Source: Rhodoferax potami
GTDB lineage: Bacteria > Pseudomonadota > Gammaproteobacteria > Burkholderiales > Burkholderiaceae_C
Reading direction: 5' to 3'
Assembly: GCF_032193805.1 (NCBI RefSeq)
Contig: NZ_JAVBIK010000001.1
Location: 2,191,001 to 2,255,000 of the forward strand
DNA length: 64,000 nt
Shown here: one piece after another, positions 44,544 through 53,050 of the stretch
How positions within the stretch are numbered: position 1 is the first letter of the stretch
Layout of the letters: every line of letters begins with the position of its first letter
Position numbers and translations under genes: made by a program
The notes under the pieces: generated by a model
What the model was told of the DNA's origin: nothing
Database searches by the model: none
Seen by the model: the letters and a program-made list of their open reading frames with translations, nothing else

Positions 44544-45866
44544 TTAGTCAGTAATCAACTTTCCTTTTGAAATCAAGTCGTTGATCAATTGCTGGTCAGT
44601 GGTGAACCCAGCCGTAAGGTTTACACCGGAGAACACGATTCGCTGGACTGTATTGTTCGTGACATCCGCAAATGTTCCTCCAATCGAATGCCCTGCAGTG
44701 AAGGCGCCCGATGTACTGATTTGGAGCACAGTCTCAGTACCGTTTGTACTGAAATGCAAGTACTTGTCCAAAGTCGCGCTGTTTTCACCCGATAACAGAT
44801 CACGCAAGTCAATACGATCGCCGCCGGATGCAAAGGTTGCAGCGCTGAAGTCGGTAATAGTGTCTACGGCCTGAGTAGCGTTGGTTCCTTGGTCATTGAG
44901 AGACCACTTAAAAGTATCTGACCCTGTTCCGCCTGTGAGCGAATCGTTCCCTGCTCCGCCAATTAAGACATCATTACCGGCTCTGCCGTTTATCGTGTCA
45001 TTACCCGCAAAGCCATAAATAATATCGCTCACGGAATCGCTGCCGGTCAAAGTATTCGCGGCGGCAGTCCCTTCTAAGTTTTGATGACCGCTCAGATTCA
45101 ATGTCAAGACATTCGTGGATGTATCTCCATCTTTATCTGTAATGGTGTAGTTGTAGGTGGCGGTTAATTGATCACCCGTCCTGATGGCACCACGTGTCGC
45201 TTCATTCATTGTGAAGGTGTAAGTCCCGTCACTATTACCAACGAATGAACCGAAGCTGCTTGTGCCGCTCCAGACGACACCGGAGTTCGCCAACCCGTCT
45301 GCCCCACCTTGAGCAAAGACGTTTCCGGTTGCGGTGGGCAATGGTTCAACGGTAGTGATCGAAGCGAAGATTCCAAAACTGGACGCCTGTTGTTCCCGTG
45401 TAAAGATTTGCGTGACCAAATTGCCGTCTGCATCTCTGAAACCATTGAAATTGACGACGTAATTTTGTCCTGCAATATTGATTGTGGAGCTAGAGGTAGG
45501 TAGGGTGATGATGTCACGGGAAGCATCATCCGTTGGAGTACTGGTGTTTGGAGTTTCCGTATGGTCTAGGCGAATGGTGAAAGGCACATTCGTGGTTACT
45601 CCGTTTATCACTACATTGAATGACAATGTCAGGTCAGTGAAGTTAAGTGGGCTTCCACCAACTGGGAAGTTGTTATGGGTAAAAGTGCCAACTTGGAATA
45701 ACTGATTCAACGCAACAGCGCTACCTGCCGCTGAAGTGAAAGAGGTGTTGTCCACCAATGTGTAGCCCGATTGCGTGTTGCCCGTACCCCACCGCAACAC
45801 CTCGCGCTGGGCATTGTCACGCGCAGTATGAAAATGACACGAGAACGCGGTGAGGAATTGATACAC
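44544..45866 (-). pseudogene. lapA: LapA-like adhesin, C-terminal fragment cut off by the IS21 element
   Basis: The open frame of 440 codons reaches into the insertion sequence; true adhesin sequence begins at 45814 (AQREVLRWGTGNTQSGYTL). It contains a T1SS-143-type repeat domain (VVWSGTSSFGSFVGNSDGTY, ATYNYTITDKDGDTS), RTX calcium-binding nonapeptides (GFAGNDTINGRAGNDVLIGG, GAGNDSLTGGTGSDTF) and a type I secretion end (VDTITDFSAATFASGGDRID). Without an IS the frame fuses directly to the N-terminal fragment at 47919. The fragment alone has no start signal and lacks the retention module. Fused length 2128 residues. Confidence 0.9.
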
Positions 45867-45911
45867 CTCGACTAACGTGCCAAGCCATCCGAACCATGGA
45901 TGGGACTGGCA

Positions 45912-46985
45912 ATGATTACGAACGAGGAGTACATGGAACTCAAGGTATTAAGGAAACACAGGCTGAGCTTGCGCGAGATATCGGTGCAAACTGGTATGGC
46001 AGTCAACACGGTGCGTAAGTATTTGGAGGGTGGTCCGCCGGCCATGAAGAAACTGCCGGCATGTAAGAGCAAGCTCGATCCATTCAAGGACTACCTGGCT
46101 GGACGTATTCAGGCGGCCAAGCCTGATTGGATTCCAGCAACGGTGCTGCAGCGTGAGATTGCCGCACAGGGGTATACGGGCTCCGTGCGCATCCTGCAGG
46201 AGTACCTCAAGGAGTTGCGTCCACAGGCGCGCCCGGATCCGGTTGTGCGGTTCGAGACCCAGCCCGGTGAGCAAATGCAGATGGACTGGATCGAGTTCCG
46301 CAAGGCTGGGCATAAAGACGGCATGTTGGCGGCGTTTGTGGCAACGCTGGGCCACAGCCGGGCGACCTTCGCGGAGTTCGTCACAGACATGAAGCTGGAG
46401 ACACTACTGGCGTGCCATGTCAGGGCGTTCGAGAGCTTTGGTGGAGTCACCCGTGAAGTGCTGTACGACAACATGAAGACCGTCATCCTCAAGCGTGACG
46501 CCTACGGCAAGAACCTGCACCAGTTCCAGGGTGCCTTTGCTGACTTTGCGCACCACCATGGCTTTGTGCCGCGGGTGTGCAAGCCCTATCGGGCCAAGAC
46601 CAAGGGCAAAGTCGAACGCATGAATGGCTACATCCGGCGCAGCTTCTGGGTGCCATTGGTGGCGAGTATGAAGCAGCAAGGCTTGGTGGTGGACGCGGAC
46701 ACAGCCAATCGGGAAATGCGCACCTGGCTGCGTGACGTTGCCAATGTGCGGATCCACGGAACCACTGGGTGTGTGCCGGCACTGGCTTTGCAAACTGAGC
46801 GCGCACATCTGCTGGCCATCCCCAGCGCCTACAGTGGGCGAACAGTGCGTCAATTACAAAAAGTCACCGGTAGCGGCGCAGCAGTCCGGCCAATTCCAGC
46901 CGCGGCATGGCGAGGCCTGCAGCATCCTCTGGCGATGTATGACACGCTGGTGCACAACCAAGCCTCAGCAGGAGGACGACCATGA
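45912..46985 (+). CDS. istA: IS21-family transposase IstA
   Basis: A DDE/RNase H-fold transposase of about 357 residues from ATG 45912 ([16 protein letters not shown]); ATG 45900 would add four residues. An N-terminal helix-turn-helix ([21 protein letters not shown]) binds the ends. Catalytic residues are seen in [15 protein letters not shown] and [13 protein letters not shown]. The length is on the short side for IstA but shows no break. The stop overlaps the istB start. Confidence 0.93.
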
Positions 46986-51077: not shown

Positions 51078-52195
51078 TCGTTGTCGGTGGGGCCGCCCGG
51101 AGGCGAGCCGGTGCCGTCGTCCTTGATGGTGCCGGAGCCGGAGTTATCGGCAATGGCAGAGCCGGCAGAGGCGTTGGAGAGATTGACGGTAAAGGCTTCG
51201 CTGACCTCGTAGACGGTGTCATTGGTGACGTTCAGGGTCACGGTCTGGGTGAGCACGCCGGGGGCGAAGGTCAAGGTGCCAGCCAAAGCGCTGGTGCCTG
51301 CGGTGACGTCGCTACCGGCGCCGCCCACGCTGGCGGTGCCGCTGGCGGTGGCGTAGTCCACGGTGAGCGCACTGGCGCCTGGGTTGGACAGGGTGACGGT
51401 GAAGGAGATGGTGCCTGCGCCCTCATTGACGGTGACGTCATTGATGGAGAACTGGGGCGTACCGTCGTTATCGGTGATGGTGGCGGTGCCGGAGGCAGGC
51501 GTGGTGGTGGCGCCGGAGACCGGAGTGGCGGTGAGGGAGAAGGATTCGTTACCTTCAGAGATCACATCATCGGTGGTGGCCAGGCGCAGCTGCACGGAGG
51601 TCGCACCTGCGGGGATGGTCACATCGCCGGTCACAGGAGTCCACACGGGAGAGGCGACAGTGCCGCTGTTGAACTCCAGGTTGCTTGCGGCGGCGGTATC
51701 GGTGCCCAGGGTGGCAGAGCCACTGGCCAGCGATGGTGTGAAAACCACCGGGCTGGTGCTGGGGTTGGAGATGCTCACGGTGAAGACGGCGCTGGCGCCT
51801 TCTGCGACGGAGATGTTGGCCACGGACAAGACGGGGGTGTCGTTGTCGGTGGGGCCGCCCGGAGGCGAGCCGGTGCCATCGTCGCGGATGGTGGTGGTCA
51901 CGGTGCCGGTGGCAATAGTGGCGCCGCCGGTGGGGGCCGACAGATTGACGGAGAAGTTCTCGGCACCTTCAAACGTGGTGTCGTTGGTAATAGCGACGGT
52001 AAAGGTCTGGCTGGTCACACCGGGGGCAAACGTGAGGGTGCCGGAGGTGGAGGCGAAGTCGGTGCCGGAAGTGGCGGTGCCGCTGGCGGCGTTATAGGCC
52101 ACCGTGATGGGGGCGCTGGCGGCGTTGGAGAGGGTGACGGTGTAGGTCAGGGTGCCTGCGGCTTCGTTGACGGTTGCGGGGCCGGTGATGACCAG
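51078..52195 (-). repeat. 1128-bp tandem repeat in lapA, copy 2
   Basis: Matches copy 1 up to 52195, after which the sequences diverge. Such near-identity implies recent duplication or gene conversion; short-read assembly may have collapsed further copies. Confidence 0.9.
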
Positions 52196-53050
52196 AGAGG
52201 GGGTGTCGTTATCCAATATTGTTCCGGTCCCAGTGACTCCGCCGATCTCGATGGGAACGCTTTCATTGCCCTCGAAGACAGAATCATTTGTGGTTGGCAC
52301 AGAGACAGTGAAATCGATCACGCCTGGCGGGACGGAAATCGTTTTTCCAATGGGGTCGAACGTGACCCCATTGCTGAATGTTGGACTTCCGTAATCCGAG
52401 TTGATCGCCGAGCCACCTCCCAAATTGAATGAAAAGGTCGAAACCACCGAGGAACTTGCATTCAGCGCAACATTGAAAACTAAGGTATTACCTTCAGTCT
52501 GTGCAGGGCTGCTGATGCTGGCAATGCTTGGTGCCGCAGGCGTGGCTGCGTTCTCTTGCACAAAGACTGTTTCTTGGGTGTCAGCGCCGCGATCAATGGA
52601 TGCGGTACCCACGGACTCATTGATCCGCATCACGCGGACGAAGCTATGAGAGTCGCTAGCATCACCGCCTGAGAGGCCGGCCGCGGTCGCTTCGAGCTGT
52701 GTGCTCAGGTCTCCGCCTGACGCAATGATTTGTTCAATGGCTGCTGAACCGCTATTCAGGTCCCGCAAGGCGGCTTCAGTGGCATCGGTAGGGCTCAATC
52801 CGAGCAGATTGGCGTCGATCAACAGCTCTCTGCCGGCTTCCAAGCTGATGGCTTGCCCATTGGGCAAAGCCAACTCTAAGCGAGTCCCGTTCTCGGTGAT
52901 GACGACTTGACCTTCTTGGATTTCGTCGCCGACTTTGAGAGCACGCTTGGTTCCGTCCGGAGAAACGACCCATGCGTTGCCTTGCAAAATTACGACGACG
53001 CCACGGGCTTGGGCGGAAACTTGGGATGTAGCCATGTCAAAAACTCCAGA

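Follow-up and report, generated by a model that had tools for sequence, protein, structure and literature searches.

Whether a bacterium can still display a giant adhesin after the gene for it has been interrupted is the question raised by a stretch of 64,000 nucleotides (the window) from the genome of the freshwater bacterium Rhodoferax potami (assembly GCF_032193805.1, contig NZ_JAVBIK010000001.1, positions 2,191,001 to 2,255,000). The genome consisted of three contigs with a total of 4.01 Mb, and the window sits on the 3.73-Mb contig C1. It carries a lapA-type adhesin gene, together with genes for its exporter, protease and receptor, and the adhesin gene contains an insertion sequence (IS) of the IS21 family. 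The best explanation, to which a probability of about 0.9 was assigned, is that a complete LapA-type giant-adhesin system lost its adhesin through a recent IS21 insertion. The named genomes nearest to the window by LapD were those of Rhodoferax sp. UBA4409 (98%), Comamonadaceae bacterium D1_MAG_00060 (98%) and Comamonadaceae bacterium OS-4 (92%), all of which are environmental; none of these names gave any sign of a pathogen of humans, animals or crops.

A sequence-only reading of the window had proposed that the N-terminal frame of the adhesin ends in the IS and that the C-terminal frame starts in it, and both frames were found as claimed. The N-terminal frame (47858–53035) encodes 1725 amino acids and ends 58 bases inside the IS, so that its last 18 residues are IS-encoded, and the C-terminal frame (44544–45866) encodes 440 amino acids from a GTG start within the IS. 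Recomputing also bore out that the removal of 45815–47915 and one copy of GCAT leaves 6387 bp (8492 − 2101 − 4), which is divisible by three. The restored reading could be seen directly in an uninterrupted close relative, L040 (a 6181-base contig, identical as a record to L042), in which LapD is 98% identical. The left flank of the IS matched this contig with 97.3% identity over 300 bp and the right flank with 94.3% identity over 298 bp; the two flanks meet at neighbouring bases of the contig, the left one stopping at 1103 and the right one starting at 1104. A single open frame of 790 codons crosses the empty site, with one copy of the target word, GTAT, where the window has the duplicated GCAT. 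What the IS21 element and its target duplication divide is a single continuous adhesin gene. The exact positional homology rests on one relative, because only L042 among the loci gathered has the same ligand-binding domain.

The element has the ends TGTCA/TGACA, and its istA and istB products were recognised above the family cut-offs (Table 1). The proposed search for other copies in the genome revealed partial copies as well as nine of full length; C1 carries six of the nine, and C3, a contig of 271 kb, carries the other three. Eight of the nine full-length copies were identical, and the remaining one differed by a single mismatch. Flanking duplications were present at all nine, with a length of 4 bp in seven cases and 5 bp in the other two; the chance of a 4-bp flank match is approximately 1/256, and target duplications of the IS21 family range from 4 to 8 bp. 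The two copies with 5 bp (L002 and L004) occupy the same site in an IS66-type transposase gene; identical host DNA extends from them for approximately 1.4 kb in one direction and 0.7 kb in the other, and the duplications therefore represent eight independent sites. Together, the istA and istB matches, the duplications and the empty site in L040 uphold the reading that an IS21 element has inserted into a gene of the lapA type.

Most likely, the IS multiplied recently. Its density of approximately 11 per Mb on C3 versus 1.6 per Mb on C1 suggests entry through C3, and the element possibly arrived on that contig. Full-length matches at 93–94% identity were found in 2 of 60 other genomes of the genus. 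OS-4 and the genome G030 gave no match at E 0.001, with four candidates scored per genome and with draft genomes often losing IS copies. The nearest plasmid matches, in Paraburkholderia and Aromatoleum (named ISAzo17), have the same istA-istB order, but their DNA identity is 68–72% over a partial alignment reaching 86% coverage; no plasmid match was obtained at the megablast level. Two other copies lie in or beside genes of the host: L006 (C1:1393099) at a response-regulator gene and L008 (C1:661751) at a FeeM-like N-acyl amino acid synthase frame. A search of C1 and C3 with the rve family gave 46 places, including several sets of sites with the same score, as if several IS families had multiplied in this genome.

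Assessment of the domain architecture revealed what the IS separates. The N-terminal piece contains a retention module (NF033682, 94.2 bits, cut-off 50) and at least seven stretches of Calx-beta extender repeats (Pfam, 1.4e-97). The word TAAG occurs at residue 117, inside the retention module, and we take it to resemble the cleavage motif of LapG. The C-terminal piece contains RTX repeats (Pfam HemolysinCabind, 40.7 bits, cut-off 23) and a VCA0849-type type I secretion target domain (TIGR03661, 68.7 bits, cut-off 17.6), and it also matches NF038131 (63.9 bits, cut-off 30). The secretion signal, at residues 335–438 of the C-terminal piece, is thus parted from the retention module, at residues 11–142 of the N-terminal piece, as had been claimed from the sequence. 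A retained RTX adhesin has both ends in one protein; in this genome the two ends are split by the IS, and in L040 one frame runs across the site. In a separate observation, positions 49942–52202 of the window hold two head-to-tail repeat copies with a spacing of 1128 bases, which match at 1125 of 1133 bases and are identical over 1118 consecutive bases. Tandem Repeats Finder was run with a longest period of 500, and the large adhesin repeats, which find_repeats and a script recovered, were not reported by it.

The domain that the IS enters could be assigned by searching the Protein Data Bank (PDB) with a 305-residue stretch of the uninterrupted relative around the site. It matched the antifreeze (ice-binding) adhesin chains 6x5v, 6x6q and 5k8g as well as chain 9y9w, with E values from 6e-27 to 8e-24, and the best matches extended over approximately 300 residues (6x6q, E 6.1e-27; 6x5v, E 6.3e-27). 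The entries 6x5v, 6x6q and 5k8g are titled Antifreeze protein, and we presume them to be the peptide-binding domain of the Marinomonas primoryensis adhesin. By sequence homology, the domain entered by the IS is a homologue of the solved ligand-binding region of the Marinomonas ice adhesin. The peptide-binding domain of the Marinomonas adhesin recognises C-terminal tripeptides, according to one report (PMC12077191), and peptide binding by the homologous Rhodoferax-type domain is putative. The IS site falls at approximately residue 58 of the 305-residue query, near the start of the ligand-binding domain, and consequently the IS separates the anchor and extenders from the secretion signal and from almost all of the ligand-binding end.

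Table 1. Positions of the adhesin locus, the IS21-family element and neighbouring genes in the window, counted from its first nucleotide
Feature	Position	Strand	Basis
lapA-type adhesin gene, whole including the IS	44544–53035	minus	8492 bp
lapA-type adhesin, N-terminal part, with retention module, extender repeats (Calx-beta) and beginning of ligand-binding domain	47916–53035	-	NF033682, Pfam Calx-beta
Retention module, residues 11–142 of N-terminal piece	52610–53005	-	NF033682
Extension of N-terminal frame within the IS, 18 residues up to a stop	47858–47915	-	frame reading
lapA-type adhesin, C-terminal part, with RTX repeats, type I secretion target domain and remainder of ligand-binding domain	44544–45814	-	TIGR03661, NF038131, HemolysinCabind
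IS-derived start of C-terminal frame: GTG, 17 codons	45815–45866	-	frame reading
IS21-family element, 2101 bp	45815–47915	+	nine full-length genomic copies
istA transposase	45900–46985	+	NF033546 312.4 bits (cut-off 160); Pfam rve
istB helper ATPase	46982–47809	+	NF038214 283 bits (cut-off 200); Pfam IstB_IS21 2.8e-85
Target duplication GCAT, left copy	45811–45814	.	sequence
Target duplication GCAT, right copy	47916–47919	.	sequence
LapE-like TolC outer membrane protein with extra C-terminal Cds6_C	39505–41373	-	TIGR01844 277.5 bits (cut-off 225.15); Pfam Cds6_C 55.5 bits
LapG-like cysteine protease	41517–42221	+	Pfam C93 57.8 bits (cut-off 27); PDB 4u65 chain E 8e-60, 4fgo 1.7e-40
LapD-like c-di-GMP (cyclic di-GMP) receptor	42245–44170	+	Pfam LapD_MoxY_N 1.2e-36, GGDEF, EAL, all above cut-off
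LapC-like membrane fusion protein	53761–55179	-	TIGR01843 411.6 bits (cut-off 208.65)
LapB-like type I secretion ABC transporter (LssB-type)	55176–57365	-	TIGR03375 980.1 bits (cut-off 693.1)
LuxR-type regulator gene, between lapC and lapA	53127–53764	-	split into two frames in the window; a single frame of 212 codons in OS-4 and R. bucti

The rest of the system is in place. The lapE, lapG, lapD, lapC and lapB genes are open and align to those of OS-4 over their length without stops, in agreement with the statement of the sequence-only reading that LapB, C, D, E and G remain. LapG scored 240.2 bits against the equivalog NF045674, below the cut-off of 320, and is clear by its C93 domain; LapD scored 485.1 bits against the equivalog NF045673, below the cut-off of 1020, and is clear by its domains. 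The locus resembles the Lap system of Pseudomonas fluorescens in having a retention module with TAAG, repeats, RTX and a type I secretion C-terminus, along with a TolC/HlyD/ABC exporter, a LapG-like protease and a LapD-like receptor. Unlike in that system, the adhesin gene is split by an IS, LapG and LapD do not reach the equivalog cut-offs of NCBIfam, lapC and lapA are separated by a LuxR-type regulator gene, and LapE has a Cds6_C domain. This LapE-like protein is 622 amino acids long, and its C-terminal Cds6_C domain, which is NTF2-like, is kept in OS-4 and UBA4409 (aligned residues 8–622). Across the whole genome, one retention module was found above the cut-off and one TIGR03661 domain at E up to 1, each belonging to the split adhesin gene; the same search found no second retention-module protein above the cut-off.

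The IS21 insertion thus places the anchor (retention module and extenders) in one frame and the ligand-binding, RTX and secretion parts in another. With the secretion signal in the other frame, the anchored part would be unable to use LapBCE, and the N-terminal product would not be exported. Any C-terminal product that may be made would be released, as it would have no retention module. Since neither piece would be both exported and anchored, the LapD-LapG switch would be left with no adhesin to control, and LapA-dependent attachment would be lost; we infer that surface display of the adhesin has been lost. Null mutants of P. fluorescens in lapA form no biofilm, even when lapG is absent as well (PMC3032545). 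For laboratory Desulfovibrio vulgaris, a report (PMC5646257) describes a comparable, unplanned loss of the display of a type I secreted adhesin in a maintained culture; as in the window, a single lesion affected one gene of an adhesin-export system, there removing biofilm formation. The lesion in D. vulgaris was a point change in the ABC transporter, whereas that in the window is an IS in the adhesin. The present case is an ordinary, clean IS inactivation of an interesting gene, an event of a known kind. No IS in a Rhodoferax lapA gene appeared among the titles retrieved by a literature search, from whose reach subscription journals mostly fell outside.

A second lesion might have been seen in the LuxR-type regulator gene, which is one base short in a homopolymer run at 53586 and is thereby divided into two frames. 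The ssb gene (38903–39508) is broken in the same way by a one-base loss in a homopolymer run at 39277, which removes the DDDIPF end that is present in all three relatives examined. Frame-breaking gaps were scanned over 42,238 window bases aligned to OS-4, and only those at 39277 and 53586 were not divisible by three and uncompensated inside a shared gene; the gaps at 2585, 16704 and 34535 fall outside OS-4 frames of at least 150 codons. A cell is unlikely to survive without the DDDIPF end of the single-stranded DNA-binding protein, and for this reason the assembly probably has homopolymer errors. The candidate second lesion was downgraded on the strength of the similar break in ssb, and the regulator break at 53586 is probably a homopolymer sequencing error. 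It is unlikely that selection for a free-living state, in cultivation or in open water, removed the adhesin, with the adhesin and the regulator genes both truly broken; such a double loss would leave a release machinery under c-di-GMP control but without an adhesin as its target.

The state of the adhesin in relatives was assessed in 80 loci gathered by LapD. A convergent frame bearing a type I secretion C-terminus was present in 53, and the 27 loci without such a frame, several of them because of a contig end, were excluded from the count. The convergent frame was at least 600 codons long in 45 of the 53 loci, starting no more than 1 kb from lapD in 42 of these, and was cut by the sequence end in the other eight. 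Nine of the 45 frames closed at a stop inside the available stretch. The retention module was found in the same frame in six of the nine (L045, L050, L055, L060, L107 and L099, the last with a weak match over a short part), and no match to it could be found in L064, also one of the nine.

Several observations weigh against the loss of the adhesin through the IS. In the two remaining loci with closed frames, L049 and L093, which both come from metagenome assemblies, a neighbouring frame carries the retention module, without any insert; the retention-module and secretion-signal frames overlap or nearly meet, and the break is upstream of the IS site. These loci run against a flat claim that relatives always have an intact gene. 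Relatives in which the two parts are always separate genes, the pattern that the sequence-only reading named as contrary to it, were not seen, L049 and L093 (2 of 9 closed frames) being frame-broken exceptions. A tenth copy of the IS, split in two on C3 (L010, C3:111905–116484), has no duplication at its outer ends; this copy is interrupted by approximately 2.5 kb of other DNA. The breaks in L049 and L093 and the copy lacking a duplication leave the odds of an adhesin lost through the IS21 insertion unchanged. The genome also contains three weaker retention-module matches, the best at 20.3 bits against the cut-off of 50, and TIGR03661 represents a single kind of secretion signal; adhesins with signals of other kinds, which were not searched, are therefore possible. 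Further, the assembly appears to hold homopolymer errors, and as a single assembly it shows one state, where a population with both alleles is possible.

One rival idea is that the insertion is polymorphic, with cells with and without the IS coexisting and the population keeping its adhesin. The recency of the IS, with eight of nine copies identical, and the undecayed state of both adhesin pieces and of the rest of the locus are compatible with it. Against it, the basis is a single assembly, and to our knowledge IS21 elements are not noted for frequent precise excision; coexistence was judged somewhat unlikely. That the two pieces work as separate proteins, the C-terminal one secreted from the IS-derived GTG and the N-terminal one in another role, is very unlikely, even though both frames are open and the C-terminal piece keeps its RTX repeats and secretion target domain. 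The IS lies within a domain for which a homologous ligand-binding domain has been solved, the close relative L040 has one continuous frame, and a simple consensus scan, a crude one, revealed no promoter-like match on the minus strand of the IS, the numbers of matches not exceeding those in shuffles. Nine full copies of an IS are a classic cause of mis-assembly, and the apparent homopolymer errors also speak for an artefact here; yet every copy is bordered by flanking DNA and a duplication of its own, and both flanks in the window match neighbouring bases of L040. Because the nine copies are distinctly flanked, mis-assembly is extremely unlikely, and on the flanks, the duplications and the empty site it was rejected.

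Beyond the insertion, comparison with OS-4, the nearest relative that is complete, revealed variation in the adhesin itself. The adhesin frame of OS-4 runs for 4631 codons without a stop, versus about 2128 codons for the window adhesin; it is over twice as long because it has more repeat copies. The two adhesins are 95% identical over residues 1–1033. The ligand-binding region of the window, from approximately residue 1379 of the N-terminal piece to residue 242 of the C-terminal piece, had no match in OS-4 at E 1e-10, and the corresponding OS-4 region had no PDB match at E 0.01. The RTX and secretion end is 46% identical to that of OS-4, although LapD is 92% identical. OS-4 (L037 and L043) looks like a case of modular exchange: its adhesin and gene neighbourhood are otherwise near-identical, but the ligand-binding end is a different one and the secretion end has diverged. 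Since the ligand-binding end differs between sister species, the locus may be a useful place for studying changes in host or surface preference.

If the culture is uniformly interrupted, biofilm and attachment assays on this strain would not describe its species. The strain would then be a natural lapA-null in which the exporter, the protease and the receptor are still present.

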